A stretch of 21,692 nucleotides of DNA, taken from IMG/VR virus record IMGVR_UViG_3300030331_005361, positions 1-21,692 of that record; one strand, 5' to 3'. The translations under genes and the position numbers were made by a program. This DNA is from a virus. Under the pieces are notes generated by a model, which saw nothing but the letters and a program-made list of their open reading frames with translations, was not told the DNA's origin and made no database searches. Shown here piece by piece: positions 2,991 through 19,882 of this stretch (its first letter is position 1; the number at the start of each line of letters is the position of its first letter).

Positions 2991-5900
2991 TAGTTGTCCT
3001 TTTCAAGATTAAAGTTATTTACAGAGGCTAGCCCATCACCGTAGGTGTAAGAATTAAACGAGTCTCCTCCAAAAGAGTTATTATCATAATAGCCTTCTAC
3101 AACTTTTGCTAACCCAGATTTGCCTACCATGTTATGTTTAGCATTTGCAAAAGTATTCAAAGCAGAATCATCAAGAACGGCTTTGATAGTATCCGAACCA
3201 GCCATCATCGCAGAAGCATAATAGAATCCAGAAGGAACAATATCTAAATTTGAACGTCTTAGAATAGAAGCATACTGCGAAGAAGAGTCTAAGCTACCAG
3301 TAGAAGAAACGATTAGATCACCGGAAAAATTATATCCTTGGGAAAATACTTGTCTTGCCATCCCTTGTAACTGATTACTACCGTTTGCTACCATAAAATT
3401 TGTTACGGGATCGACTGAGAAGTATAGTCTAAAAGCTCCAAAGTTCTCGGCACTGACGCTCTTACCAAAAGGATTTTCAGAACTATGACCGTAGTAATCT
3501 AATACTGATAACGAAGAGGTGTCAGGAGTGTCCGTGGGCGCACCGGAGGCAGACCCCCAAACCCCTGAGGGTCCATTGTATCCTGAATCTCTTGGATGGC
3601 TTCCAGAAACAGAAAGCTGAGAAGCTTTTAGCATTGAGTTGTCAGCTATGTTCCATATAAACAATCTGGTACAGTTATTGCCTGCTAGGGGTGCCGTGCC
3701 ATCAATATCATACACTATTCCTGAGGCATTGTGCCATGTCGCGGGGAAGTGAACATTATTGGTCTCTACAAAACTGTTGCCGACTGCCCTTACACACATC
3801 CCTCCAGTAGTGATATCATCAATACTATTTGCATAGTTGTGTAGTAGGTAATGCTTACAAGGAGAAACAGCATCATTTTCAAAAACAAATCTGTCATTAT
3901 TCTGAACCACTGTAGGGTTGTCAACAACATCTGCATTGTTTACATTTGCGTTAGGATAAAACTGTACAAACCCTGCGCTGGCGTATGTTAAAAGCTCTGA
4001 ATCACTAAACCCAGTTAACCCGTCTTGTGATTGACCGTAGATGCCAGTATTGTAGAAAGCTTTATGATCACCTAGATTCTCCATCACAATTCTAGAGTTT
4101 CTATTCGCTACTAAACAAGACCTAGTAGAGTGAAGCTCAACCATGGTGTGATTAGCGGGGTTAGATAAATCAAAAGAAGAAACAAGAAGTGCTCCTTCGC
4201 CATCTTTATGTGGGGTAATCTCAATATTAGAGCTATCTTCAGCCAGAACATCCACACCAAACCTGCCAATCGTTGTCGGACCTTGAATTTTTATTGTGGA
4301 GTTATCCTTAGCGTATAAACCAGCAACATTAATGCTATCTTCCCTTTCTTTCGGCCCTAAGAAAACGTTCGCATATCCGTTAGCAGCGGTCGCATGCTGC
4401 CCCGACCCTCTAACAGTTAGTGTTGAGTTACTTTCAACCTTACTAATAAGACCATGGTGGGCTGTTAAAGTTTTACTAGTCCCAGGCACGCGAACCATGT
4501 GGGCATGGATTAAGTCTGCATCAGAGTTGTTCTTTAAATGAATACAAGGCTTAAGCTCTATACCCGATTCTTCTAAACCAAAACAACCACTGGTGTAAAA
4601 CATGCCAAACATTTGAGGCATTGAGCTTGTGTAGTAAGGCTTTATAATGCTATTGTCGGCAACTAAATCCTGACCATTTAGAATACAACCTACCTGGGAT
4701 TCTAAGGTTGAAGTTACAGACCCAGCTTGAGATTGTGAAGCTGCTGCATATAAATCTTTGTTGTATACAAGCTCGGAGTTTTCTAAGTCTATTGCTGTGT
4801 TTTGATTAAATCTTGAGTTTAGTTGGTCTGTGTAGACTTTAGAATTGCGAGACTCTACTCCCTTGTAATTTCCGTCAAAGTAAATTCTACCACTGTAATC
4901 CAGCTTACTATTACTAAGACGTAACCCTGCCTCAGTATTTAATTCGGCGAATATTTGAGAGCCGTCGTTTCTCTTTGAAGAACCGAAGTCAGGAGATTTG
5001 CCAGACTGCTCAGTGCGACCTCCAGTAATTAAAGAATTTACGGCATCAATCCCTATATCATTTCTAGAAAGGCAATACAAAGCCTCCACTGATGGCGCCG
5101 GTATATTTCCGGCACTGACAGAGTAGCTAGGATATACATTGGAATCTAAAGTAGCTGAGGCCTGCAATATATCGCGATCATAAGTGGACTTAAGATTTAG
5201 TGTAGAATTGTAGACTCGTATGCCAGCGCCATACCCACTTAGCGAATCATAAGATTCTCTCTTTTCTGAGAAAGGAACTCCCACCCTGTTAGATGATATA
5301 TTGGAATAGTTTCTGTAGCCAATAAACCCTCTAAGAATATTGACCTCTGAATTGTCCACAAACAAGCCTGAATCATTGCACCTGGATACCGAACATCTCT
5401 CTAAATTCACATTAGAGTTTTTGATTTCAATACCCCTATCTACTAAGTTCTCGCCATCAACGTTAAAGTTTCTAATGAATACTGGGCCGTTGCAATTGTT
5501 TACTTTAATAAAGTCCAACTTGTTAAAGTAAGCAAAGGCAGCAGCGGCGGTATTATTAGCACCCTCGCCTGTAGCCACCTCAGTACCGTCACCCCACTTA
5601 ATCTCTGTGTTATTTAATTCGTTTACGGTGCTAACATCAAAAACTGCGTCGGAAGATGCTTTATCAAAAGGAGTAAATTTAAAACTCTGAACTTCTGAAA
5701 TCGAAGCGGCAGTAATGTCCCAAGGAGTTATGGCGCTGCTAAGAGAGGCCGTTAGTCTGTTTAACTGCTCTGGTATAACTTTCTTTGAAAAAATGTAAGG
5801 CTTAAACTCCGCAAATCTCTCATCTTTCCATGTATTACTTGAAGAAGCCACAAATGAACCGTTACTGAACAGCCTTGCTTGCTGCATATCGTAAGCCAAC

Positions 5901-6448
5901 CCTGGCCCAGAAGCACCTGCAAGTTCTTGCTGAACATCTAACCTAATTGGGGATACCGCGCTTGCTAGCTTGTAATCAGTAGATCCGGCATCATACTCTT
6001 GGCCCGTGAGTGCTACACCTGATAAATTCATAGCAGGAGCGAAGGAGCTAAGCCTGTTAATTATCTCTAATGCTCCATTAGGACCAAAAGATTTGTTTGA
6101 TAAGTTTAAACCGCCTAACTCTCCAAAGCTAGCCACCTCTACCAGTATAGGATAGTTGATGACCTCCGGTAAAGCGTCTATGCAAGCACTTAAGGTAGTA
6201 AAATGAAGTGGGCTGCAAGCGGATGCGGCGTCGGCAGAAACAATAAAGGACATGCCTGTTAAAGCAGATGTAGGGTGTCCAAACTTTTCCCAAAGAAGAG
6301 TAGTCCTCTCATCTAAATCAAACAAAGGTAAATTATCTTGCTCAAAATTGTAGAATGAACTAGAGTCATACTTAGTTACTTTATCAGTCCAGCAAACTAA
6401 AAGTTTGTTAGATCCGCCTGAGACATATAAATCGCTTGGGTTTAACAT
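2990..6448 (-). CDS. Parallel beta-helix tail protein, candidate receptor-binding or fibre protein
   Basis: A 1152-residue protein. About residues 310-790 hold an irregular repeat in which a short strand ends in an Asn-Ser turn and leads into the next strand: GIEIKNSNVNL, GLFVDNSEVNI, GIRVYNSTLNL, GLRLSNSKLDY, AIDLENSELVY, GLYAKDNSTIKI and more. That pattern is typical of right-handed parallel beta-helices (pectate-lyase-like fold), common in phage tailspikes and adhesins. The N-terminus (33-49, YNFEQDNLPLFDLDERT) matches the start of the 930-residue neighbour, so it is probably the virion-attachment part. Residues 115-127 share a second motif with that neighbour's C-terminus. The C-terminal 350 residues are unassigned. 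The gene starts 1 nt after the preceding stop with only a weak GGA site. No catalytic residues can be assigned, so whether it binds or cleaves glycans is open. Confidence 0.75.
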   Translation of the reverse strand: MLNPSDLYVSGGSNKLLVCWTDKVTKYDSSSFYNFEQDNLPLFDLDERTTLLWEKFGHPTSALTGMSFIVSADAASACSPLHFTTLSACIDALPEVINYPILVEVASFGELGGLNLSNKSFGPNGALEIINRLSSFAPAMNLSGVALTGQEYDAGSTDYKLASAVSPIRLDVQQELAGASGPGLAYDMQQARLFSNGSFVASSSNTWKDERFAEFKPYIFSKKVIPEQLNRLTASLSSAITPWDITAASISEVQSFKFTPFDKASSDAVFDVSTVNELNNTEIKWGDGTEVATGEGANNTAAAAFAYFNKLDFIKVNNCNGPVFIRNFNVDGENLVDRGIEIKNSNVNLERCSVSRCNDSGLFVDNSEVNILRGFIGYRNYSNISSNRVGVPFSEKRESYDSLSGYGAGIRVYNSTLNLKSTYDRDILQASATLDSNVYPSYSVSAGNIPAPSVEALYCLSRNDIGIDAVNSLITGGRTEQSGKSPDFGSSKRNDGSQIFAELNTEAGLRLSNSKLDYSGRIYFDGNYKGVESRNSKVYTDQLNSRFNQNTAIDLENSELVYNKDLYAAASQSQAGSVTSTLESQVGCILNGQDLVADNSIIKPYYTSSMPQMFGMFYTSGCFGLEESGIELKPCIHLKNNSDADLIHAHMVRVPGTSKTLTAHHGLISKVESNSTLTVRGSGQHATAANGYANVFLGPKEREDSINVAGLYAKDNSTIKIQGPTTIGRFGVDVLAEDSSNIEITPHKDGEGALLVSSFDLSNPANHTMVELHSTRSCLVANRNSRIVMENLGDHKAFYNTGIYGQSQDGLTGFSDSELLTYASAGFVQFYPNANVNNADVVDNPTVVQNNDRFVFENDAVSPCKHYLLHNYANSIDDITTGGMCVRAVGNSFVETNNVHFPATWHNASGIVYDIDGTAPLAGNNCTRLFIWNIADNSMLKASQLSVSGSHPRDSGYNGPSGVWGSASGAPTDTPDTSSLSVLDYYGHSSENPFGKSVSAENFGAFRLYFSVDPVTNFMVANGSNQLQGMARQVFSQGYNFSGDLIVSSTGSLDSSSQYASILRRSNLDIVPSGFYYASAMMAGSDTIKAVLDDSALNTFANAKHNMVGKSGLAKVVEGYYDNNSFGGDSFNSYTYGDGLASVNNFNLEKDN
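2997..3001 (-). promoter_or_regulatory. Ribosome-binding site of the 930-residue protein gene
   Basis: AAGGA on the minus strand, 6 nt before the ATG at 2990, inside the last codons (EKDN-stop) of the beta-helix gene. It is one of the best Shine-Dalgarno matches in the window. Confidence 0.65.
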
Positions 6449-7067: not shown

Positions 7068-8083
7068 TTGAAGTCAAAAAGTAATGTTAATAATATCTTA
7101 GAAGAACTTGTGTTTAGAAAAAATCCTAGGCCTGCGAGGCCTGAAAAATCTCTATGAAAAAAGGGATTGTCTAAAATAGTAGCCTTAGCTACAAGCTTAT
7201 ACTGTCTGTTATTATTTAGAGCATCCCAACTATAAGGGGGCATTAACCCAGAAGCTAACATAGATTTTAAGTCAAGACAATGCACTCCCAGATGCTTAAC
7301 ACTCCCAAAAGATACTAAAGTAACAATGTCACACTGCTCTACTTGAGTGCTTATCTTCAGGAGGCCTAAGGAGGGTGAAGCAGCGCCAGATAGGATTAGA
7401 GAGCCTTTTGAATAATCTAAGGGAGAAACATTCTGTGCCACAGAAGATGGGCTAATTGTTAAAAACCCTTGCTTGTCTACTAAGCCTGAAGTATTGTACT
7501 TACTAGTTAAATCACCACCGTAAACAAAGTTTCCGTCTTTATCGTAAAATTTATAAGTATCTCCACTAGAGGCCGCGAAAGCACCCACTTTGTTCCAAAC
7601 TGAGCTTAGTTGTGGATCTATAGCAGCATTGACGTAATGCCCAAGATTCTGTAATGAGCTTGTGAATAATCCTGATGTGTCTGGTTTAGTTAAGTTTACG
7701 GGTAGAGTGCTACCTCTCTCCAACCTAGTATCTGACGGGAAAGGATCATTAGGAACTGAGTTGTAAGTGGATGAGAAATGAGAGTAAGTTGCGGAAACAA
7801 CGTAAGAAGATGCTCCATTTGGCTCGTCAGATCCATAATTAAATATAGATAGGACACCATCATCAAAACTGCTGGCCCCTGAACTTGAGTCTCCGTTAGT
7901 GTATTGTATGGTTGAAACTACATGAGAGTGGTTAGAAAACCCATCAGCGTCTTTACCGAAGGTAATGGCCTGGAATGTGTAATTTGAAGCATCAAGTATG
8001 GAACTTGCAGATGGAAGCTCAGACAATGCCGGATTTACCGTCATTACATCTGCCAAAATCTCACCAAAGCCTTGTAGGTACAT
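7064..8083 (-). CDS. Phage structural protein of unknown function, between gpI-like and fibre-like genes
   Basis: A 339-residue protein rich in Ser, Gly, Asn and aromatic residues, with no signal peptide, membrane segment or catalytic motif. The first half is low in charge and predicted to be beta/loop (VVSATYSHFSSTYNS, GSTLPVNLTK). It then has NLGHYVNAAI, and a better-defined C-terminal part with VKHLGVHCLDLKSML, YSWDALNNNRQYKLVAKATI and a final hydrophobic strand (KILLTLLFDFK). The TAATG overlap with the gpI-like gene and the ATGA overlap with the next gene suggest stoichiometric synthesis with baseplate proteins. Its slot corresponds to the first gene after gpI in P2-type operons, where fibre or fibre-adaptor genes lie. 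I do not recognise the family and assign no function beyond probable virion component. Confidence 0.55.
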   Translation of the reverse strand: MYLQGFGEILADVMTVNPALSELPSASSILDASNYTFQAITFGKDADGFSNHSHVVSTIQYTNGDSSSGASSFDDGVLSIFNYGSDEPNGASSYVVSATYSHFSSTYNSVPNDPFPSDTRLERGSTLPVNLTKPDTSGLFTSSLQNLGHYVNAAIDPQLSSVWNKVGAFAASSGDTYKFYDKDGNFVYGGDLTSKYNTSGLVDKQGFLTISPSSVAQNVSPLDYSKGSLILSGAASPSLGLLKISTQVEQCDIVTLVSFGSVKHLGVHCLDLKSMLASGLMPPYSWDALNNNRQYKLVAKATILDNPFFHRDFSGLAGLGFFLNTSSSKILLTLLFDFK

Positions 8084-11000
8084 TATACTTGTATGGTTAT
8101 CTCTTCTTTAAGATTGCCAGTTGCGGCAAAAGTTACTCCCAGAAGCAACTCATCAGGTAGGCGATAATCCAATCTTGATCCGCCCTCAGAACCCATTATA
8201 GTCGATGTCTTAGACTTGTCTCTGCTAGCATTTGCAGCGACAGAATTTTTTCCTGCTATATTATTAAAGTGTTTAAATATGTCGAAAATATCCTGCTTTG
8301 AAAGAGATACCCTGTGCTCCGAGCATTCTTTAACAACATCCTTAAGAACACATAAAGGATCACTTAAGGTACCATCCGCAAATATTTTTGAAAGTTTATT
8401 AAGAGTGAGGTCTTGAACCTTTAATGTATCAAGAAGTAGGAATTCATCAGGTTGGGATCCAGGAAGCATGAAAACCTCCACTACGTAATTTTGATCCAAA
8501 CGATGTAGTTGATTAAAGTTTTTCTGATAGTCGTATGGTAATATCAAATCCCTATTACGAGTATTAAACTCTATATCAAAATCTCTAAAGTCATCACTAC
8601 CTAGCCCTATAATAGGTGAAGTTCTAGTTGAAGAAACTAAGTTTAAGCAGGTATTGCTGTTTGAATTTGTTGTGGTTTGAGGATCGTGCTCCTCTAGTTC
8701 AAAAGATTTTATGTGAGCGTAATTGTTTATCAACTCTGTTCTAGATATCAGTTGATTATGCTGCACCCAATTACTTTTTGAATCAAAGCTCCACATGCTG
8801 CCATTCTCTGGCTTAGTGTGAATCCAAACTCCCACGCTTCTACCCCCTAGAGTTAAACCACTATCCCTACTAATCAAGCTTCTCAAGCTTAATATAAAAT
8901 CATGGTCTGGTGATAGAAAGTTATTAGGTACAGGCTGAGAGGTGCTTGCATACTTGGATATGTCAAAACGGACCCTGGGAGGTCCAGAAGGTGCATCCCC
9001 TGACCTCATCAGCACAACGGTATTATCAAATAAGAAATCATCCTCATAAGGAGCCTTACTAGATTTAGGAATTCTTATTACAGAAAAAGACTGACCCGTC
9101 ACACCCGATGTAAGAATTAACTCAACCTCACTTATTAGGCCTGTGCTCACCCTCTCAAAGTTACCTATATACATGCTAGAATCAGCATTGGCTAAGAATG
9201 AATTTGATCCAGTAAAGGGCTCAGAAGTTGCCTCTAACTTAATAGTATTAGAGAAAGAACTAGCAGTAAAAGGCTTATCGTCTCCTAAAATTTCAAAGTC
9301 GTGGTTTCTAACCAAGGGTCCAAATGTGTGAGAAAAAACGTTTGCTCCGTCTTGAGATTGAATATCGGGCCTTAAACTATGCCATTTGAAGTTTTTCTGG
9401 TAGATCCTATAGAGTCTATGAAGGTCTCTGCCAAACGCAAAGTTATAGTAATTACTCACTGATTCAGGAAAAGTGTAACCACTAGCATTTGCATTAGTGC
9501 CGCTTGCGGCCAGAGATATTTGGTCTATATTAATTGAGGTGTTTTCCTCAATTTCATTTCTTGCTTTTAATTCTTTAATTGACTCAGCCACCCTATGCAT
9601 AGCCGCATAAATACCTGGAAGCTGCCCTCTGTCTGTCGTGGTATCCTTATTATCTTTTAAGCTTCCCGACTTTCCTCGAATGTTTTGAGTGTTACTAACA
9701 TCATACTCGAAAAAAGTATTGTTTGAATTGAGATTCTGACATTGATTCCATATAGGAGGTAAATTAATATGGCTGGTGACGGGAGTGTAGCTTAATGAGC
9801 TTGGAACTAACCCTAAAGGGATTCCACTTAATCCTGAGGAAGAGTCAAAAGACACCGGCATATTAAATCCAGTCCTATCGTAATAGCCATTAAAAGGCAT
9901 TACCTTCTCGAATGATTTTCTCCTAGCTGTGATTCTAGGGATGTCCCCAATAGCTGATAAGTTTATAAATTTAGGAGAAACCAAAGATTGAAGGTCTTTT
10001 CTGTCAACAACAACTCCATCAGAGTTGATACCTCTCTTGTAGCTATTAAAGAAAATACCCGAAGCTAATCTATTACCCCCCGCGCCCTTGTCTAACTCCA
10101 CACCATCTAAATAAATATGAGGTAAGCAGTTATCTTCAAATATAAATTTATCTGGGGAGGCAGATACCTCAAGCGATATCAAAGGTATGGAGTGGGCTGG
10201 GGCAAACTTTGAAATAGCTTTAGCAGCGAATGGTACGACATCACCACTGCTTATGGACTTTAAATCTTTCTTATTAAAATCAAACTCTGAAGAGTCTAAA
10301 ACTAATTTAAAGTGAGAAGATTTACCTGACCAAAGTGGTGCATACGTTATGTCCTTGTTGTTTATGTCTTTTATAACACTATCAAGGTTTGGGGGTTGAT
10401 TGTATCCAGAGGTGAATATCAACCAGGAGCCTAGCCTAGGCTCATCATCATTAGTAAGAGCTTTAGACTCTATAAAAGAGCTAACATCTAGCGCAAACTC
10501 TTGCCTAACTCCGAAACATACCAATTGGTCGGTTATAAACCTAAGCATGTCGAAACTTAGTTCTGTGTTGACATAGTAAGGATACTCCTCAAAGGGAGGT
10601 ATCGGATAATCTCTGCCTCGGTATTCAAATGTTCCCGAAAACTTGGATAACCAAGTATTTATTGGGAAATTTTCGGGGAATTGAATGATTGTATCTAAAA
10701 TTATTTTATCTACAGCCAACTTTATATTCTCGTCCATGCTAGCGTAAGAATATTTTTCAATACCCTTAGTAGCAGCTATCGTCTCTGTCCAAGTACTAAA
10801 ATCTCTAAAGAAAGGAGATTCGGTAGCAAGAGAATAATAAATTAGAAAAGGAACGTAAGATTCCCACAATTCTGTAATCCTACCTTCAATCGGAAAATTA
10901 TTTTTAGGGAATATGGTATTAATTGTAGACTGTATAGCCCTCTTGGTACCTACTGATTTGTAAATTGAAACAGCATTCCTAAGCTGCATTCTCCACCTTA

Positions 11001-11988
11001 CAGGATCATTGCCAAACAAATCCCAACCAATTAATTGAGAGATAAAGGGTAGTAATTCATCAGGGCAATCATCTATGTCATACAGCGTTGAAATCTCCTC
11101 TGTGTCATTATTAATGTCAAAAGCTAAAAAGGATAAGGCCCTTATTAATCTTGCGAAAGGACCACTTTCAATCTTTTCTGAAGACTTTATACTGTTCTCC
11201 ATAAATAGATTAAATTTATCTCTAACTCTAAAGTCAGAAGAGTCTGCAAATAAAGGAGAATAGATTATCTGGTTCCAAGTCTTAAGCTTGTCAAGTTGCT
11301 GTATGCCGCTGGTAGTCTCAGAACTGCCACTAACAAACATGCTAGGTATAAAAGAGCTAGATGCGTTCCGCCATAAATACTCCGTTAGCCCATTTATACC
11401 GTCTAACGTATCAATTTTGTTCCCCTCGTATAAGCTGCTTACAATCAAACCTTTAACATATGAGGATGGACTAAAGGTAGGACCAGAAGTATTAAGAAAA
11501 TAAAACCAAGACAGCTTGGATATTAAGTGATCGTGTATCGCAGAGATAGATCCTAAGCTAGAGAATACAGACTCATTAGGATTATTTAAAGTTATTGAAG
11601 AAAGTAGCTTAGTATCTATGAAAGATGACAACTCTTCTTTTGATTGGAAATCAGAAAACTTTACATCAAAGAAAGAAAGAATATCGTTTTCAAAACTTTG
11701 TGTAGTTACTTTGGTTAGATTGTTCTGCTTAACAAAATAAGGTGCTATACCTGATAGGGAACTCAAGTCTGTGAAATTAGACCCTTCCATGGAACTTACG
11801 TTTAGTATGGATGAGATATTATTAGCAGCATCAATATGAGTATTTATAACTAAATCAACAATATCTTCAGACTTAGGAGTGCCAGACAGATCATCTTCAA
11901 ACAGATAGTCTGGGATAATAAATTTTAATGCCTCATGATAGTTTCTTTGAAAGAAATTAGGATTTCTTAAGTATACCTTCCCAGACAT
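8083..11988 (-). CDS. Giant baseplate wedge protein with tail-protein-I-like segment
   Basis: A 1301-residue protein. Residues about 300-360 contain DDCPDELLPFISQLIGWD followed by a positively charged helix, LRNAVSIYKSVGTKRAIQ. This is the hallmark arrangement of the P2 tail protein I family: an acidic start, LLP..A..L.WD, then a helix with the G-T-x-x-A-I motif. P2 gpI is under 200 residues, so most of this protein is extra. The N-terminal 300 residues look mainly helical. After the I-like segment come PFEEYPYYVNTELSFDML (about 470) and a long beta-rich region with RTGFNMPVSFD (about 705) and VGVWIHTKPENGSMW (about 1050). The gene follows a gpJ-type gene by TAATG, the expected order. It probably plays the T4 gp7/P2 gpI role of bridging the inner wedge to peripheral fibres; the role of the extra domains is inferred. 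Confidence 0.7.
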   Translation of the reverse strand: MSGKVYLRNPNFFQRNYHEALKFIIPDYLFEDDLSGTPKSEDIVDLVINTHIDAANNISSILNVSSMEGSNFTDLSSLSGIAPYFVKQNNLTKVTTQSFENDILSFFDVKFSDFQSKEELSSFIDTKLLSSITLNNPNESVFSSLGSISAIHDHLISKLSWFYFLNTSGPTFSPSSYVKGLIVSSLYEGNKIDTLDGINGLTEYLWRNASSSFIPSMFVSGSSETTSGIQQLDKLKTWNQIIYSPLFADSSDFRVRDKFNLFMENSIKSSEKIESGPFARLIRALSFLAFDINNDTEEISTLYDIDDCPDELLPFISQLIGWDLFGNDPVRWRMQLRNAVSIYKSVGTKRAIQSTINTIFPKNNFPIEGRITELWESYVPFLIYYSLATESPFFRDFSTWTETIAATKGIEKYSYASMDENIKLAVDKIILDTIIQFPENFPINTWLSKFSGTFEYRGRDYPIPPFEEYPYYVNTELSFDMLRFITDQLVCFGVRQEFALDVSSFIESKALTNDDEPRLGSWLIFTSGYNQPPNLDSVIKDINNKDITYAPLWSGKSSHFKLVLDSSEFDFNKKDLKSISSGDVVPFAAKAISKFAPAHSIPLISLEVSASPDKFIFEDNCLPHIYLDGVELDKGAGGNRLASGIFFNSYKRGINSDGVVVDRKDLQSLVSPKFINLSAIGDIPRITARRKSFEKVMPFNGYYDRTGFNMPVSFDSSSGLSGIPLGLVPSSLSYTPVTSHINLPPIWNQCQNLNSNNTFFEYDVSNTQNIRGKSGSLKDNKDTTTDRGQLPGIYAAMHRVAESIKELKARNEIEENTSINIDQISLAASGTNANASGYTFPESVSNYYNFAFGRDLHRLYRIYQKNFKWHSLRPDIQSQDGANVFSHTFGPLVRNHDFEILGDDKPFTASSFSNTIKLEATSEPFTGSNSFLANADSSMYIGNFERVSTGLISEVELILTSGVTGQSFSVIRIPKSSKAPYEDDFLFDNTVVLMRSGDAPSGPPRVRFDISKYASTSQPVPNNFLSPDHDFILSLRSLISRDSGLTLGGRSVGVWIHTKPENGSMWSFDSKSNWVQHNQLISRTELINNYAHIKSFELEEHDPQTTTNSNSNTCLNLVSSTRTSPIIGLGSDDFRDFDIEFNTRNRDLILPYDYQKNFNQLHRLDQNYVVEVFMLPGSQPDEFLLLDTLKVQDLTLNKLSKIFADGTLSDPLCVLKDVVKECSEHRVSLSKQDIFDIFKHFNNIAGKNSVAANASRDKSKTSTIMGSEGGSRLDYRLPDELLLGVTFAATGNLKEEITIQV

Positions 11989-13592
11989 TATATGTATTCT
12001 ACCCTTATAGTTAAGTTATTCAATTGAATAATTTCATTGAAGCCCACCCTTATTTTGGAATCAACATTATCCACTTCTGCGAATCTAAGAATATCAACTT
12101 CAGAAAGTAAAACCCTTATAAGGTCTTGAGGAATAAAAGGCTCTCCAAACTCAACATTGTTAAAATTCATATAGTTTAGTATGGATGCTCTAGACCTTTG
12201 AATAATCTCAGACTCGCTTCTTCTAAACTTATCATCAATAGTTAGGGTAACTATAAGGTCTAAAGTCCTAATCAAACCATCAACTACAACAACCTCATCA
12301 GTAAGCATTTTAAGTGGCTCTATAGCCTCTAAAAGTTGCTTTTTGTATTCTTGAGTAGCTCTTCTCAACTGATTGTCAGAGGCTCTTTCCAGAGTAAATA
12401 AATCGACTATATTAGCAGACGAGAAAGCTCTTCTCACTACCGCAGTAGCTTTACCAGTAGACCCGTAGTTTGATGCAAATCTATTAGCAAAAGCTTTGAA
12501 ATCATTTAAAGTTACAAGTCTGTCTTGTGTCCTAAAAACTAAAGGTGCATATCTTTTTGCTTCAGAAATAGACTCTGCATCCCTTCCCCCCGTGGCAATG
12601 CTGCTGTTCTCAACGGTTAAACTAACCGGCTCTTTAGAAGAGCCTAATTTAGAGGTTCCATTTAATTTAGCATTAATAACTCCCTCTGCCAAATTTCCTC
12701 TGACTCCGCCACCAACACGATAGGTAATAGTGTATTCATCTCCAATTGCAGGAGATAACCCTACAGTGTTGTCTCCAAAGAATATAGAGGCTTTAAAGTT
12801 TTCATTAGTAGTAACCTGGAAAACTTTGTCTGTAGGTCCTGATGCGAAATATATGTTATCTTCTTCTTTATAAATCCCCTGAGTTTCTGGCTTTCCTGTA
12901 ACGAACACTTGAGCACTTTTCTCAACATAAGGAAACTGGCTAAGGTTCACACTCTGTATTTGAGAGGGAGATGAAAAAACTCCTGTTTCTACAACCAATG
13001 CACCCTCAAGTAACACAGCGTCAGTAACAGTAACATTCCCACCTACAGCAGAAACAGTAAACTCTAAATCCTCAGTGGGGTCGGTTAAATCTACAGTACC
13101 ATTATTATTAACCTTGTATAAGGTGTAGGTCAATGAACCGCCATCATCTGGTGATCCAATAGTTACCACCCTATCGGAAGCCGAAACTACTAAAGTATTG
13201 GGATTGCTTAAGGTATTGACTGAGTATGATAGAGTGGCATTAGCAGCCGCTGATATCGGACCCCTCATTCTCACACCAATTAACTCTAACAATCTTTTAA
13301 CACTATCTCGGCTCTTAGCAGTTCCTATGTAATTCTCATTTGCTAAATAATCTGATTTGTTGGATTGAATGTGGCCCACAGCAGCCATCATTTCAATTAA
13401 AAGCATGCCAAAGTCTGAACTTTCAAAGTTGTTGTAATCTAAAGGGAATGTGGCTTTAACATAGTCAATTAAGTTTTGACGTAAAGTTTCAAAGTCCGAA
13501 GCAGAAAAATCAATTAACTTTTCTTTATCACCAAGCTCAGAAGGTATGAGTTTTAGAAAGTCCGATTCAACTGTTCCTGAAAAAGCTACCAT
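11988..13592 (-). CDS. Baseplate wedge protein, gpJ / T4 gp6 family
   Basis: A 534-residue baseplate J-like protein. The N-terminal region (about 45-115) has FGMLLIEMMAAVGHIQSN, YLANENYIGTAKSRDSV and RLLELIGVRMRGP, the family's helical signature. The middle is beta-rich (IYFASGPTDKVFQVT, YTITYRVGGGVRGN). At about 331-375 lies the diagnostic GGRDAESISEAKRYAPLVFR-TQDR-VTLNDFKAFA block. The C-terminus has EPFIPQDLIRVLLSEVD. These proteins form the wedge ring around the hub that transmits the contraction signal; T4 gp6 is somewhat longer and P2 gpJ shorter. The ATG overlaps the gp25-like stop (TAATG), with GGAG 10 nt upstream. Its place directly after gp25/W and before the gpI-like gene is the conserved order for contractile tails. 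Confidence 0.93.
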   Translation of the reverse strand: MVAFSGTVESDFLKLIPSELGDKEKLIDFSASDFETLRQNLIDYVKATFPLDYNNFESSDFGMLLIEMMAAVGHIQSNKSDYLANENYIGTAKSRDSVKRLLELIGVRMRGPISAAANATLSYSVNTLSNPNTLVVSASDRVVTIGSPDDGGSLTYTLYKVNNNGTVDLTDPTEDLEFTVSAVGGNVTVTDAVLLEGALVVETGVFSSPSQIQSVNLSQFPYVEKSAQVFVTGKPETQGIYKEEDNIYFASGPTDKVFQVTTNENFKASIFFGDNTVGLSPAIGDEYTITYRVGGGVRGNLAEGVINAKLNGTSKLGSSKEPVSLTVENSSIATGGRDAESISEAKRYAPLVFRTQDRLVTLNDFKAFANRFASNYGSTGKATAVVRRAFSSANIVDLFTLERASDNQLRRATQEYKKQLLEAIEPLKMLTDEVVVVDGLIRTLDLIVTLTIDDKFRRSESEIIQRSRASILNYMNFNNVEFGEPFIPQDLIRVLLSEVDILRFAEVDNVDSKIRVGFNEIIQLNNLTIRVEYI

Positions 13593-14035
13593 TAGATTTT
13601 AACTCCAATATTAAAGGCTGTGGCTATGGCGTCCTTTATAGAGCAAAACAGATTAACCTTCAACTGCCCTCCCCTAGACTCAAAAACTTGAATTTTACCT
13701 ATAGACACGGTTCTAAGGTATCTACGCACGGAGATAGTAACTTCCTCTTTTATCAAAGAAAACAATGTCTCATCAAGAGGTTCCATTAAAAACTTTCTAA
13801 GATCGCATCCATAATCAGGGCGCATAAATCTCTCACCCCTTTGAGTCCTTAGAAGAGAAGACAGATTAGACTTTATAAGTTTTAGATTAGAAGATTTGCT
13901 AAAATAACCATTTTTAGGGTTTAAAGGTATGGGGTAATTAAGACCTTGAAACTTAGGGTCTTCTAAGGTGAAGGGTCTTTTAATCTGACGTGCGGTCAGC
14001 TTGCCGTGAACAGTAACATTATTTGAAATAGGCAT
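13592..14035 (-). CDS. Baseplate wedge protein, gp25 / gpW lysozyme-like family
   Basis: A 147-residue protein, the usual size for this family (T4 gp25 is about 130 residues). Residues 61-89 carry the family signature: LLRTQRGERFMRPDYGCDLR followed by KFLMEPLDE, then a helix (LFSLIKEEVTISVRRYL) and two C-terminal strands. The EPR-like core that holds the sheath initiator to the wedge is represented by the R-G-E-R and M-R-P-D-Y-G residues. Despite the family's historical lysozyme-like name, the protein is structural: it links the inner baseplate to the first sheath ring. Its ATG is 14 nt after the stop of the glycosidase gene, with only a weak AGAG upstream, and this is the largest gap in the block. 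Its last codons (GVKI-stop) supply the ribosome-binding site of the next gene. Confidence 0.93.
   Translation of the reverse strand: MPISNNVTVHGKLTARQIKRPFTLEDPKFQGLNYPIPLNPKNGYFSKSSNLKLIKSNLSSLLRTQRGERFMRPDYGCDLRKFLMEPLDETLFSLIKEEVTISVRRYLRTVSIGKIQVFESRGGQLKVNLFCSIKDAIATAFNIGVKI
13603..13606 (-). promoter_or_regulatory. Ribosome-binding site of the gpJ-like gene
   Basis: GGAG on the minus strand, 10 nt before the ATG at 13592, inside the final codons (GVKI-stop) of the gp25-like gene. The 17-nt context is almost the same as that before the LamG-protein gene. Confidence 0.65.
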
Positions 14036-14049
14036 TTTATTTTAAATCT

Positions 14050-16173
14050 CTAAAATATAGAGAAGTCCGAGTTTACAGTTGTCCCATAGTCTTGTAGTTT
14101 AGATATGCAAATATTTGCCTTATATATTAATTCTTCATAGAAAACATCATAAGCCTCCCAGTCAATTTGAGACATAGTAGGATTCGTTGGCTTACTGGAT
14201 GTAGTATAAATACATGAAGAAGTGGCGTGACAAGAAAAGGCAGACGCGCTATTAGCATCTAAACCTGTGATATCCCTACCGTCAACCGCAGGCATAATTG
14301 TGGTTGACGGTGACCCAGGTGCTGCCAATCCGTTTGCGGCGGCGCTAAAGGCTAACCTGTCAGAAACAGATACAACCTCATTTATGCCTGACAAATCGTC
14401 AAATTCCGTTCCATACAGACTTTCTCTTAAAACATTTGGGGTTGAATGTTGGCCAGAAGCGGCAAAAAGAGTTCTTGTAAGCATAAAAATGACATTAGAC
14501 ATATACAATACTTGATTGTTTCTAGCGTCAAAATCTTCAGAGGTGCTACCGTAGCTTTTAAGGCTAGGTAATGACGACAGAGTGTAGAAAGCATCGTAAA
14601 CATCCTTTATAGTAATGTCGCTTGCGTTTAAACTATACTTTGGTTGAACTCTATTAAGGCCCACAATGTTAATATCATTTAATACAGTAGAGTGTAAACT
14701 TCCTTGAACATCGTTATACCTATATGAGTTTAAGTTTAACGCCCCTGGATTTAAAACCTGTGCTAATGCCAGCCCAGATACACCGTAAAAAACATTCCTA
14801 GTTTTTAGCCAATCTTGCTCTGTCATAGTGTATTCTGAATTAAAAGAAATATGCTCAGGAAGAACTCCTACAGAATTAAATCCATCAATAACTCCCGTTA
14901 CAACCCCTGAAGTATAACCTTTACTATCAAGACCGTCTGGGGATGCTGACTTTTGAACAATATTTGGATTAAGCTGTCTTCTAGTAAAGTCCCATTGATC
15001 TTTAGCTAAATCGTGAAAAGAAGAAACATCCATGCTTCTCCTGCATTCACCATCACTAAAGTATATTCCTTGTGTATAGTTAAAGGGGTTAAGAGTTCCG
15101 GTCCTTTCAACAAAAGCTTGATACATTAATCCACCGTAATCCTTACCTCTGTGTAAGTATTTTATAACTTCTCTTGGGTAATTCAAAGTAGGATAATTAG
15201 ATGCCTCATTATACATAGAAGGAATTCCTATATCGAGGGCTCCAGACACTGCTTCTCTAACGTATTTTTTTAACCAATAAGCACTGTTTCCATAAGTATG
15301 AAGTGATGCGAAATCTAGTCCAGTTGCTGATAAAGCATACAGATTAGGAACACTACCTTCTGTTCCTTCAGTTGAGCTAAAAAGGTAGTATATACCAGGG
15401 TCATACCCTGCTCCGTTTCCGATAGTAGTTTTAATAAAAGAATAATTGGAATTAATGTAGTCTGATGTTGCGGAACTAATGAGTCTTAAATGCTCTCTTA
15501 AATCAGATTCATTTTGAACATCGAAGGACCACATAGACTGGTAAGAGGACACCGATCTTGCTAAAGAGTCAATATAGGGTTTTGCGCTGTTTGTGAAAAA
15601 GTTAGAAGCTTGGGCTGCTGAGGATGTCTCAAATAATAAAGGCACATTTCCCCAAACTGAGCCACCAGCGCCTGACTCAGGGCCAGCGGCATTATAGATT
15701 ACAGCGGCAGATGGGTTTGATGTTACCTCAGACTCGGTAGGCTCACCCACTCCCCCCATTATATTTAGCTGATCCCAAAGAACAAATTGAACTCTTACCT
15801 TGTACTTGTCACATATTGTTAAAAAATTCTTAATATCCTCTAAATGACTATTCCCCTTAGCCTTAAAAACGTAATAATCTAAAAATACTCTTACAGCATT
15901 GATACCGTTACTTCTTAAAATGCTTATTGCATTTTCTGCATCTTCGCTGTTATAATACCACCATTGAGCAGTTTTATTAGTGCCCACAAAAGACTCTGAG
16001 TCTGGGTAACTTACAGGATCACTTACCGCTGCCCATAAGGAAGGCCTTATTTTTGGAAGATATCCATTACTCTTCCATACGGAATCTAAAGGTATGTTTA
16101 AATTCACACCTCTGCAATTAGTGAAATACCTCTGTGCGGACTCTGGGATATTAGGCTGTATAGGTTTAGACAT
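14050..16173 (-). CDS. Virion-associated glycoside hydrolase candidate, clan GH-A (GH5-like) TIM barrel
   Basis: A 707-residue protein. Residues about 17-370 show the ordered landmarks of a GH5-type (beta/alpha)8 barrel: RGVNL (21-25), INAVRVFLDYYVF (91-103, conserved Arg95), YKVRVQFVLWD (124-134), SFDVQNESD (216-224, candidate acid/base Glu222 after Asn221), FASLHTYG (288-295, His292 and Tyr294) and GIPSMYNEAS (316-325, candidate nucleophile Glu323). The two glutamates sit about 100 residues apart, as expected for retaining clan GH-A enzymes. There is no signal peptide, so if active it probably acts as a virion part. The C-terminal 300 residues are helix-rich and unrecognised; they may be the baseplate anchor. 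The gene lies between the LamG-protein gene (TAATG overlap) and gp25. Substrate is unknown. Loss of activity, with the barrel kept as a binding scaffold, is possible. Confidence 0.75.
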   Translation of the reverse strand: MSKPIQPNIPESAQRYFTNCRGVNLNIPLDSVWKSNGYLPKIRPSLWAAVSDPVSYPDSESFVGTNKTAQWWYYNSEDAENAISILRSNGINAVRVFLDYYVFKAKGNSHLEDIKNFLTICDKYKVRVQFVLWDQLNIMGGVGEPTESEVTSNPSAAVIYNAAGPESGAGGSVWGNVPLLFETSSAAQASNFFTNSAKPYIDSLARSVSSYQSMWSFDVQNESDLREHLRLISSATSDYINSNYSFIKTTIGNGAGYDPGIYYLFSSTEGTEGSVPNLYALSATGLDFASLHTYGNSAYWLKKYVREAVSGALDIGIPSMYNEASNYPTLNYPREVIKYLHRGKDYGGLMYQAFVERTGTLNPFNYTQGIYFSDGECRRSMDVSSFHDLAKDQWDFTRRQLNPNIVQKSASPDGLDSKGYTSGVVTGVIDGFNSVGVLPEHISFNSEYTMTEQDWLKTRNVFYGVSGLALAQVLNPGALNLNSYRYNDVQGSLHSTVLNDINIVGLNRVQPKYSLNASDITIKDVYDAFYTLSSLPSLKSYGSTSEDFDARNNQVLYMSNVIFMLTRTLFAASGQHSTPNVLRESLYGTEFDDLSGINEVVSVSDRLAFSAAANGLAAPGSPSTTIMPAVDGRDITGLDANSASAFSCHATSSCIYTTSSKPTNPTMSQIDWEAYDVFYEELIYKANICISKLQDYGTTVNSDFSIF

Positions 16174-18770
16174 TATACTATATTAATTGGTTCCCACATG
16201 GAGTTAGGAACTTCAATATTCTTAAAGAAGTTCTTGGTAGCTTTATAATTATTTAGAACCTCACTATCTTCAAGAGGCTTTGAATAAAATCTAGTGCAAC
16301 CTAGATGACCCCTAAGACCACTAATTTTACCTCCAAACTCTCCGCCCATAAAGTTACCAGATGATAAACCATCAGTGTAACCTCCACCTAAAATCCAAGG
16401 GGTAAAGTAGTTATCAAGACTAGGCCCACCGGAATACTCGAAAGAGTTGTTCTGATAAATAGAAGGTGACTTATAAGCCTCTCCTAATTTTTGAGTTCCA
16501 AAAGTTCCTTGGTAACTAGATGTCATTAATTTTACACCATCAAGATAAACTCTAACTTCATCTCGCGGGGGGTCCATACATACGGATAATTGAGTAAAAG
16601 ACCTGCCACAGCTAGAAAGCGAAACACCGTTGAAAGTTTCAAAAACTGGTATAGTCATGCCGTGTATGCCAGTTTTATTACAGTTTGTTTTATCTGCAAT
16701 AAACCCGGCGCTTGAAGAGTCATAAGATTGAGTCGGAGCTAAGACTAAACAAAGATCACCAACCGGATTATCACTGCTATCATTACTAGGCTCTAAGCCG
16801 AGTGTAAACCTTCTATCTCTAGTAAATCCTAAGATGGCTCCCCGTACGATACCAGTACCGGCATCAGGGCTCATATTATTAATATCTTCTTGAGGCTGTT
16901 TAGAATCGGATATACCCACGTTCTCATTAGCTAAAATGAGTCTGTATAATCCCAAGGTATTATTATCATGAAGATTATAACCCTGTGTTGTACCATCTAA
17001 ATCAGGCATGTGAATCCAAGTCTCAAAAGTCGCGCCACCTGAATTATAAAGTAAATCTTGAAACTGAGGTCTGTCTGGCAGTCTGAGGTAGCTGCCAGTC
17101 ACATCTATCTCTGAGGATCCATCTTTCGGGAATGCAACCCCGCTTAAAAAGGGAATGCCTAAGCCTCTAGTGAACACTTCGGGCGACGACCCAACCAGTT
17201 GAGAATCCAAAAGTCTACCAAAGTCACTAGAATTCCTAACCGAGAAATTAGTCCCAGAAGCTACATCTTCTTTAACGGTTAGGTAATTATATAAAGCAAT
17301 CAAGCCATCCGAAATTATCCTATCATTGATCTGAAGTGACGGTGCAGAGGGCTCTAAGGGATTGGATATTGTCTCTCCTCTCGCAATATTAGATAGTAAA
17401 ATGTGGTCTATAACAACTTCTTCCGTTGTCTCTATCTTTTCCGTAAACTTAGTTTCAAGAGGTAATACAACTCCCGTAACATCATCTTGCTGTATTACAA
17501 TTTTTCTTTGATTTTGAATATCAAGCAAGAAGTTAGAACCCGCTAAATATGAAAAGTCGTTTACCGGGATATTTCCAGGAGTAAACAAGGGACCTTTTCC
17601 TAAGAAAGTGGGAACCTTAACAGCCAGTTCTACTTGTTTCTTTCTCTTATTTAACTTATCATCGAATTGTGCTATCTCAGAAAATAAAACTTGCCTCATA
17701 TTTTCTATAATTGCTTGCGAGGCTGAGTCTTCCACAAGCTCTTTGATTTCTGATGAAACGTCAAATACTCTTCTATCTTTCTGGCCTCTAATGCTTAGAA
17801 GCAAATCATCCTGATCATAATAAGCTGTTATTGAAGGAGAATTATCAATTATATCGGGATCTAAAACACTATTAAAGTAATACCTTAGATCTTTAGAAGT
17901 AGTCGGTAATCCTCTACCCCCTAAGCTGGGGTCGAACTCTAACTTCCAAGCCTCACCAAAGGGGAATCCCCCATCTTCAAATAGGACAGACTCAGACCTA
18001 TCTTCAAGCTCAAGCAACGCAGGTTGAACGCCACTGGTTTGAGAGTCATAGTAAAGCCCATCAACTGATAACAAGAACTTACCAGTCTTAGATCTTGGAG
18101 GTCCTGCTTCAAGTCGGAATACAGATTCAGTGATCTCAGGTGGAGGCGGGGCAGGAGGATTAACAATAGAATCTAGGATGATATCATCAATAATTCCTAT
18201 TTGAGTGTCCGCTAGGTCTACAAAAGTAGTCGAGGTACCTGCAAGATCCATGAGTGCTCCAAACTCACCATTAACTATATCCGCTAAGTCTGTCGGTTCT
18301 AGGTCACCTAGCTCTTCTCTGCGCTGGAACGAATTACCATCTAAGAAGTCTAGGAACTCTTTAAACTTTGACATACACTCAGCAGCAGCCTCAAATCTCC
18401 TAGCCAACTCTCCGCCTGCTGCTACCACACCTTGTGCAGCGCCTATAAACTCACCCAAGTCCTCAGTTATGTTGAGCACCTCTAAACCAAACCTGGATGA
18501 TCTTGAGAAGAATCCAAAGTTTCCATCTCTGTCTGGGAAGAGAGATATGCCTAAAGCATCCCTTATCTCTGCATTAACGTTCTTAACTACGGTGTCTGCC
18601 CTCTGCCTTCCTCTAACAACGGCTTCTCGGTATTTCTGTAGGATTGGAACAGGAATAACGCTGAGAATGTCCGTGCCTAAAGTAAGCATGCAGCTAGGCA
18701 CTCCAAACTGTGAGGCTAGGTCTGAGGCGGAGCCTCCTGTCTTTAAAAATGTTGAAAGGTCAAAGCCCAT
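16173..18770 (-). CDS. Structural protein with C-terminal LamG / concanavalin A-like domain
   Basis: An 865-residue protein in three parts. Residues 1-200 are mostly helical (YREAVVRGRQRADTVVKNV; ELARRFEAAAECMSKFKEFL) and may attach to spike or wedge. A proline linker (NPPAPPPPEI, about 207-216) follows. A middle beta-rich region begins with KFLLSVDGLYYDSQTSG. From about residue 485 to 860 the sequence reads as a LamG jelly-roll: DGLIALYNYL, ATFETWIHMPDLDG, FTQLSVCMDPPRDEVRVYLDGVKL, and GHLGCTRFYSKPLEDSEV near the end. The chain of F-E-x-W-I, V-Y-L-D-G and the terminal R-F-Y-S-x-x-L-x-D-x-E block is characteristic of Laminin_G_3-type domains, which often bind glycans. It lies between spike and glycosidase genes, overlapping both as TAATG, with a strong GGGAG site. 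Glycan binding is inferred, not shown. Confidence 0.75.
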   Translation of the reverse strand: MGFDLSTFLKTGGSASDLASQFGVPSCMLTLGTDILSVIPVPILQKYREAVVRGRQRADTVVKNVNAEIRDALGISLFPDRDGNFGFFSRSSRFGLEVLNITEDLGEFIGAAQGVVAAGGELARRFEAAAECMSKFKEFLDFLDGNSFQRREELGDLEPTDLADIVNGEFGALMDLAGTSTTFVDLADTQIGIIDDIILDSIVNPPAPPPPEITESVFRLEAGPPRSKTGKFLLSVDGLYYDSQTSGVQPALLELEDRSESVLFEDGGFPFGEAWKLEFDPSLGGRGLPTTSKDLRYYFNSVLDPDIIDNSPSITAYYDQDDLLLSIRGQKDRRVFDVSSEIKELVEDSASQAIIENMRQVLFSEIAQFDDKLNKRKKQVELAVKVPTFLGKGPLFTPGNIPVNDFSYLAGSNFLLDIQNQRKIVIQQDDVTGVVLPLETKFTEKIETTEEVVIDHILLSNIARGETISNPLEPSAPSLQINDRIISDGLIALYNYLTVKEDVASGTNFSVRNSSDFGRLLDSQLVGSSPEVFTRGLGIPFLSGVAFPKDGSSEIDVTGSYLRLPDRPQFQDLLYNSGGATFETWIHMPDLDGTTQGYNLHDNNTLGLYRLILANENVGISDSKQPQEDINNMSPDAGTGIVRGAILGFTRDRRFTLGLEPSNDSSDNPVGDLCLVLAPTQSYDSSSAGFIADKTNCNKTGIHGMTIPVFETFNGVSLSSCGRSFTQLSVCMDPPRDEVRVYLDGVKLMTSSYQGTFGTQKLGEAYKSPSIYQNNSFEYSGGPSLDNYFTPWILGGGYTDGLSSGNFMGGEFGGKISGLRGHLGCTRFYSKPLEDSEVLNNYKATKNFFKNIEVPNSMWEPINIV

Positions 18771-19882
18771 TAGATTGGAACTCCCACGGGATCAGTATAG
18801 TCGTTATCCGTTATGTTGATTGACTCAGGGGCGGTACCTGGACTTTGACTGACCGGCGCGGCAAGGTCATCCTTACTATTGCTTGTAGGCAAGAATTTAA
18901 TTTCTGTGTCATTAACAGAGACAGAATTGCCATTTAATTTCACGCCCCCAGAAGAACCTATTTTAACCCCAGGATCGCCACCGAAAATATTAACTCCACC
19001 ACTAGCGTTCATATTAATAGAACCTCGGCTAGCTAATTGTATATTACCGTCACCAGTAATTTTAACAGACCCCTCACTATTCACTTGTATAAATGCTCCC
19101 TTTGTAATTATATTTACATGGCTTTTATCACCAATAGCAGCTAAATCTATATTTTTAAACTTACTCTTAAGCCTGACATTGCCGTAGAATTTACCATTTG
19201 TACCATTTGGACCGTTTGGACCTGAGGAATCGTTAGCAATATTTATATCCATACCCTCATTAATCTTCATGACAATGCTTGAATCTTGACATACATATCT
19301 TTGAGATAGTTGAGTGTTAATATCCAAAGATCTAGCTGGCCTCTGTTCGTCTCCGTTGCTCCCTGTCAAAACTATTGAATCCCCTTGTGGATTTTTCATT
19401 TGAATTCCTAACGGGCTTACGGTAACCTCGTTACCCCCTTCCTCTTTAACGGTTACGCTGTTTTTTATCCTGTCATCCTGCATGTCTCTTTGAATTAGAA
19501 CTCCAGCGCCCACAGAATTAGTGAATGCTTGGGTTACTGGTTTATTCTGCTTATTATAAACCTGAGCTTGCGAATCAGTTGATCTAAGGGGTTTGAAGTT
19601 AGGGTTCTCAATATTGTTTCCTGGAGTTTCCTTAGAAGCGACAATTGTTGATATATAATAAAATGGCTTTTCACCTTGTGTAAGTTCTTCGTTCCAAAAA
19701 ACTAGAACCTGATCTCCAACTTCAGGGACTGCAACAATACCTCCTGCATTAATCTTAAAAAAAGGAGATGTATAAGTCACCGGCTGAGGTTGATCACCAA
19801 ACTTGTCCCTAAAGTGAACCATTAGTGTGCCGACTTCACTATCGTCTGTATTTTCCCTTACTATACCTACTAAAGTTTTCAT
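18770..19882 (-). CDS. Baseplate central spike protein, gp5 / gpV type
   Basis: A 370-residue protein. Residues 1-85 form an OB-fold like that of gpV and gp5: LVGIVRENTDDSEVGTLMV, then AGGIVAVPEVGDQVLVFW, then KPFYYISTIV. Residues about 125-215 are strand-rich (NEVTVSPLGIQMKNPQ; SSIVMKINEGMDINI). A GPNGPNGTNG loop (221-230) leads into a beta-helical needle (about 232-330) with repeating short strands: NVRLKS, NIDLAAI, HVNIIT, AFIQVNSEG, SVKITGDG, NIQLASRG, SINMNASG, GVKIGSSG. There is no lysozyme domain, unlike T4 gp5. Such spikes are trimers that puncture the outer membrane. The C-terminal 40 residues are polar and probably flexible. The ATG overlaps the hub gene's stop (ATGA), with AGAGG 9 nt upstream. 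No separate PAAR tip gene is visible in the window. Confidence 0.9.
   Translation of the reverse strand: MKTLVGIVRENTDDSEVGTLMVHFRDKFGDQPQPVTYTSPFFKINAGGIVAVPEVGDQVLVFWNEELTQGEKPFYYISTIVASKETPGNNIENPNFKPLRSTDSQAQVYNKQNKPVTQAFTNSVGAGVLIQRDMQDDRIKNSVTVKEEGGNEVTVSPLGIQMKNPQGDSIVLTGSNGDEQRPARSLDINTQLSQRYVCQDSSIVMKINEGMDINIANDSSGPNGPNGTNGKFYGNVRLKSKFKNIDLAAIGDKSHVNIITKGAFIQVNSEGSVKITGDGNIQLASRGSINMNASGGVNIFGGDPGVKIGSSGGVKLNGNSVSVNDTEIKFLPTSNSKDDLAAPVSQSPGTAPESINITDNDYTDPVGVPI
18781..18785 (-). promoter_or_regulatory. Ribosome-binding site of the LamG-protein gene
   Basis: GGGAG on the minus strand, 10 nt before the ATG at 18770. It lies in the codons for the last residues (GVPI) of the spike protein, so the spike C-terminus doubles as the translation signal. 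Confidence 0.65.

Follow-up and report, generated by a model that had tools for sequence, protein, structure and literature searches.

A divergent GH-A-like barrel protein encoded by an optional gene of the baseplate operon in uncultured T4-like phages

The baseplate operon of an uncultured phage of the T4 superfamily encodes a 707-residue protein whose N-terminal part is predicted to form a (beta/alpha)8 barrel of glycosidase clan GH-A. The operon is carried by IMG/VR virus record IMGVR_UViG_3300030331_005361, a genome fragment of 21,692 bases that was analysed as a whole and is referred to below as the window. It is set apart from known phage glycosidases by belonging to a divergent GH-A family devoid of any curated match, which a sizeable uncultured T4-type group carries as an optional baseplate gene, its active site being intact in some members and degenerate in others at one and the same position. 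The protein is probably a virion glycan depolymerase, carried on the baseplate and cutting surface polysaccharide. An initial annotation of the same DNA had described a glycoside hydrolase within a baseplate operon; its fold, motifs and setting are supported by the computations reported below, and we infer enzymatic activity and a virion location.

Twenty-four homologues originating from viral contigs were aligned with the window protein over residues 1-410 (14944..16173, minus strand) and the resulting 25 rows were submitted to AlphaFold2. The model (pLDDT 72.8, pTM 0.84) displays eight strands in barrel order, at residues 21-25, 93-97, 127-136, 214-223, 248-253, 288-292, 319-324 and 348-350. 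Every one of the best PDB matches of this model belongs to a glycosidase of clan GH-A, the majority being mannanases and mannosidases of GH5. GH5 mannanases rank first in Foldseek (1qnp, E 4.2e-8), where 125 chains are found at E <0.001, and VIA-align places GH5 and GH164 mannosidases first with a Z of 24.4 (rmsd 3.1-3.2, 283-296 residues aligned), followed by the GH2 glucuronidases, also of clan GH-A, with a Z of about 22. The 25-row profile was compared as well to the PDB sequences, a search independent of the structure model. The 15 chains obtained at E up to 1 all bear glycosidase names (mannanase, cellulase, glucanase or related); at the top stands the GH5 endo-mannanase 8d89 (E 0.0012), whose Asn-Glu pair is aligned with that of the family. 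The assignment to the clan GH-A fold can be regarded as secure since prediction, structural comparison and model-independent profile search agree; the barrel that the initial annotation had expected within residues 1-400 is what was obtained, and a non-barrel outcome did not occur. Matches to MHC class I chains in PDB searches performed with a single sequence or a small alignment (E 0.2-0.9) were attributed to chance. Residues 411-707 (14053..14943, minus strand) are poorly predicted in a full-length AlphaFold2 model built from four sequences (pLDDT 31); the end of this region (IDWxxYDxx...) can be identified in the majority of homologues, several of them with a degenerate active site.

All the motifs listed in the initial annotation were found, namely RGVNL (21-25), AVRVF (93-97), FVLWD (130-134), QNE (220-222), HTY (292-294) and PSMYNE (318-323), and its numbering of Glu222 and Glu323 is correct. 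The set lies far beyond chance, being invariant in homologues and located on the expected strands of the predicted barrel. The candidate acid/base, Glu222 (codon 15508..15510, minus strand), is preceded by Asn221 at the C-terminal end of strand 4, as in clan GH-A enzymes, and the candidate nucleophile, Glu323 (15205..15207, minus strand), stands at the C-terminal end of strand 7, so that both are placed at the barrel mouth. His292-Thr293-Tyr294 (15292..15300, minus strand), at the end of strand 6, corresponds to the HxY of GH-A enzymes; in the alignment, HxY is present in all homologues possessing both glutamates and missing from all those without them. When the window protein is compared with five homologues sharing 31-66% identity with it, Arg95, Asn221, Glu222, His292, Tyr294, Asn322 and Glu323 are all invariant.

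The Arg, Asn-Glu, His-x-Tyr and Glu of the GH5 residue set are thus present. A tryptophan on strand 8 is usual in GH5; at the corresponding position, close to residue 351, the window protein has Tyr and the homologues L003, L052 and L154 have Trp. The window protein does not match the Pfam GH5 model (PF00150) at E<=0.1, its best relative (L010) reaches 17.3 bits against a cut-off of 23.5, and no curated glycoside hydrolase family is matched above its cut-off. A hit to GH98 (PF08306; 15.7 bits against a cut-off of 23, E 0.0094) covers residues 11-151 only and was rejected. As the Pfam cut-offs are not reached, the protein is named GH-A-like and not GH5, and the earlier term 'GH5-like' is retained as a description of resemblance. 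Compared to the beta-mannanases and mannosidases of clan GH-A and GH5 (1qnp, 4lyp, 7bob and the GH164 enzyme 6t75), the protein shares the barrel topology, the Arg of strand 2, the Asn-Glu of strand 4, the HxY of strand 6 and the Glu of strand 7, but it displays only 10-16% identity, falls short of the GH5 model, and differs by an extra C-terminal region of about 300 residues and by its setting in a phage baseplate operon. The family is invisible to annotation based on sequence only, and similar modules have therefore probably been missed elsewhere.

The main genes of the window are all on the minus strand and form a tail/baseplate operon, as established from the list of open reading frames and the Pfam and PHROG matches. 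A 603-residue protein cut by the contig end is followed by a baseplate spike-like protein (18770..19882), whose OB-domain match to Phage_base_V is weak (E 0.047, below cut-off), and by an 865-residue protein (16173..18770) with a LamG/concanavalin-like C-terminal part, relatives of which match PF13385 Laminin_G_3 with a best E of 1.6e-5, below the Pfam cut-off. The barrel gene (14050..16173, ATG at 16173 and stop at 14050) comes next, a real open reading frame for which the initial annotation gave no strand. It precedes the gp25 baseplate wedge gene (13592..14035; PF04965, E 1.7e-10, above cut-off), a gp6-like wedge gene (11988..13592; phrog_219, E 1.9e-36), a gene for a 1301-residue protein with a Tail_P2_I domain (8083..11988; PF09684, E 5e-5) and those of four further structural-looking proteins. 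Adjacent homologues of gp25 and gp6, as found here, identify a T4-type baseplate wedge operon. The barrel gene was said to sit between spike and gp25 genes and does lie between them, but the LamG-like gene intervenes and is its immediate upstream neighbour; the overlap reported with that neighbour amounts to one base, shared by the stop and the start in TAATG. The barrel gene stop is separated from gp25 by 14 bases. Inspected by eye, the N-terminus of the barrel protein (MSKPIQPNIPESAQRYFTNC...) shows no hydrophobic signal, in line with the absence of a signal peptide noted earlier. Elsewhere in the window (2990-6448), a 1152-residue protein containing short NSTVNLERCSVSRC-type repeats has the look of a right-handed beta-helix; it has no Pfam or PHROG match.

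The source is an uncultured T4-like phage. The TerL encoded on L241, a related contig, has its closest match in LR756511, a 595-kb uncultured phage (34%), and then in Flavobacterium phage immuto and T4-like phages; gp6 also matches LR756511 as well as gp6 of cyanophage and T4 type. An assignment to the cyanophages is unsupported, psbA being absent from 18 related records, which are fragments. Judged by gp6 and TerL, LR756511 (segment LR756511.1 544418-581899) is the nearest relative of the group among the phage records, and it shows no barrel homologue. More generally, no homologue of the barrel protein was found in 50,697 phage records or confirmed in a scan of genome contigs; the LamG-like protein has no match in the same phage records.

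Confirmed relatives of the LamG-like protein and of gp6 were retrieved in 199 and 142 stretches, respectively, from which 103 loci distinct in the 3' end of the LamG-like gene were counted. The LamG-like gene is directly followed by gp25 in 77 of these (median gap of 8 bases) and an insertion separates the two in the remaining 26, of which 25 encode the barrel protein; these counts describe a sample and not a frequency, since the loci were retrieved by means of gp6 and of LamG queries resembling those of the window and of L060. At the twenty-sixth locus (L225), the LamG-like protein itself (7932-11654) runs on into a C-terminal region of about 380 residues containing GQSNM, a SASA/esterase-type motif; the Pfam SASA match covers the motif only (E 0.026). 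The barrel gene is optional and looks like an exchangeable tool for passing the coat around the host cell. A sugar-related theme at this site is suggested by the LamG-like neighbour and by the esterase-like fusion.

Two alternatives are confronted by this distribution. The enzyme might be made during infection and left unpackaged, opening slime or matrix for the progeny at lysis or acting on polysaccharide stores of the host, as would suit a gene that stands alone and encodes no recognised attachment domain. We consider this improbable: the gene is fixed between structural baseplate genes, overlapping one of them, in 25 phages, the site being empty in 77, its product has no apparent signal peptide, and degenerate versions, for which a free enzyme would have no need, persist at the same site. 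The protein might also be a tail-associated peptidoglycan hydrolase that opens the wall of the cell at the time of injection. Glycoside hydrolases that attack the wall are indeed known from virions, such as Gp255 of Bacillus jumbo phage BpSp, which is free-standing and binds a baseplate protein (PMC4870245); Gp255 is, however, a GH25 enzyme lysing the host wall, whereas the fold matches obtained here are GH-A enzymes of beta-mannan/glucan type and no lysozyme family is matched. Digestion of the wall should moreover be generally needed, and the barrel gene is optional, which makes this function very improbable.

Four types of active site are distinguished in the alignment. The NE/NE type with HxY is found in seven full-length barrels (window, L001, L002, L003, L034, L052 and L154) and L148 is a fragment of this type showing the second NE only. 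Ten loci, forming the L006 clade, are of NK/YA type; five (L022, L031, L042, L045 and L046) are HD/ID and two (L060 and L073) are NV/ID. The catalytic glutamate pair is therefore kept in only seven full-length barrels and one fragment out of the 25 sampled. Each type forms one group in the tree, with a support of only 61/86 for NE/NE. Close pairs of degenerate barrels display dN/dS values of 0.05-0.4, indicative of purifying selection, so the degenerate forms are not decaying. Since most sampled homologues have lost or changed the catalytic pair, the barrel can serve without GH-A catalysis. Intact and degenerate forms together offer a natural series in which to ask which glycan each phage has to cross and by what steps an enzyme becomes a scaffold.

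The same observations favour a reading in which the window protein is part of the virion but not an enzyme, acting as a sugar binder or structural adaptor with the conserved glutamates serving in binding or folding. This is rather unlikely for the group of the window, which retains the whole GH-A set (Arg, NE, HxY and NE) down to 31% identity, the glutamates and HxY being lost together elsewhere; pure binding would not require a pair of glutamates precisely on the acid/base and nucleophile strands.

A role facing the host is suggested by the comparison of two contigs, L001 and L002, that are near-identical from the spike to gp6. Synonymous and nonsynonymous changes number 4 and 0 in the spike gene, 4 and 0 in the LamG-like gene, 0 and 1 in gp25, and 1 and 2 in gp6. 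The barrel gene shows 6 synonymous and 49 nonsynonymous changes, distributed across the gene as single codons and short clusters that spare both catalytic Glu motifs. This nonsynonymous excess, which concerns a single pair of metagenomic contigs, is clear relative to the neighbouring genes (Fisher P 2e-5) and modest relative to the neutral expectation (P 0.027). Such a pattern would be expected of a surface meeting a variable host structure.

The depolymerase reading accordingly combines the GH-A fold and its invariant residues, the adjacent spike, LamG-like, gp25 and gp6 genes with the same position in 25 sampled phages, the contrast in amino-acid change with the spike and LamG-like genes, and the precedent of a phage GH5 cellulase described below. 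The following scheme can be proposed. The N-terminal 400 residues would form a clan GH-A barrel with a retaining-glycosidase site, in which Glu222 acts as acid/base and Glu323 as nucleophile, Arg95, Asn221, His292 and Tyr294 supporting the predicted active site. The C-terminal region of about 300 residues probably anchors the protein to the baseplate, beside or via the LamG-like protein encoded just upstream; it is synteny that points to the baseplate. On contact of the tail with the cell, the enzyme would cut a polysaccharide of the surface, be it capsule, slime or matrix, allowing the baseplate to reach the outer membrane, and this polysaccharide may double as first receptor. Activity, substrate and mode of attachment are all presumptive in this scheme.

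Most of the phage depolymerases known are tailspikes with a beta-helix fold. TIM barrels, as in the present protein, do occur among the phage polysaccharide-degrading folds, in only 10 of 984 DepoScope proteins (1.0%), where beta-helices dominate (PMC11326577). A GH-A enzyme in the baseplate, earlier qualified as unusual, is rare but not unprecedented. The gp095 protein of Erwinia phage S6 is a GH5 enzyme shown to degrade carboxymethylcellulose, the first receptor of this phage being cellulose (PMC9544554). It is likewise a GH-A enzyme of phage origin, but a true GH5 located at the C-terminus of a protein with N-terminal domains, in a podophage of the Schitoviridae; only strands 2-3 are aligned by hhalign between the barrel family and the phage GH5 group including gp095. 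The Henunavirus baseplate operon provides a precedent alongside gp095. In Erwinia phage pEp_SNUABM_01, the gene of a GH5 'baseplate protein' directly follows the Baseplate_J wedge gene and is itself followed by GH48. The GH-A enzyme gene thus adjoins the Baseplate_J wedge gene, with spike and hub lying upstream, a location shared with the window; the differences are a strong PF00150 match (E 2e-45) at the C-terminus, the placement of this phage in the Vequintavirinae and the lack of a listed LamG-like partner. The endoglucanase of Klebsiella phage SopranoGao is also a barrel glycosidase of a tail module, but its GH5 domain (E 2.4e-46), with relatives in 35 phage records, is fused to a Gp77 fibre-tail adaptor domain.

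The site between the LamG-like gene and gp25 may possibly, though we hold this tentatively, be a modular socket: a GH-A enzyme would have been recruited as a baseplate part, its active site would have decayed in several lineages with the barrel kept as scaffold, and other modules would have taken over the chemistry, namely the extra C-terminus of the L006 clade, an esterase-like insert in L060, the esterase-like fusion of L225 and extra genes in L022, L042, L060 and L073. Such a history, if true, would be an actual case among phages of an enzyme on its way to a structural adaptor. In the L006 clade, about 600 extra C-terminal residues (14665-16485 in L006; 62% mean column identity) are added to barrels without either catalytic Glu. 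This region has homologues within the clade and no family or PDB match; a beta-helix glycanase identity, suggested by its look and backed by no search, is not claimed. A large insert within the barrel of L060 (7384-8283), without Pfam match, contains GDEHARG and GTNN motifs and resembles by eye an SGNH hydrolase. A second open reading frame accompanies the barrel gene in L022, L042, L060 and L073; in the first two it runs opposite to the barrel gene. Such an opposite frame of about 690-800 residues, located between the barrel gene and gp25 in L022 (14703-17084, minus strand; no Pfam match) with equivalents in L042 and L046, is inverted within an otherwise one-strand late operon. Finally, the genes of two pairs, L006/L008 and L094/L105, are near-identical in one half and far more diverged at synonymous sites in the other, which indicates mosaic exchange and suggests module swapping by recombination; the LamG-gp25 site would be a place where glycan-related modules are swapped.
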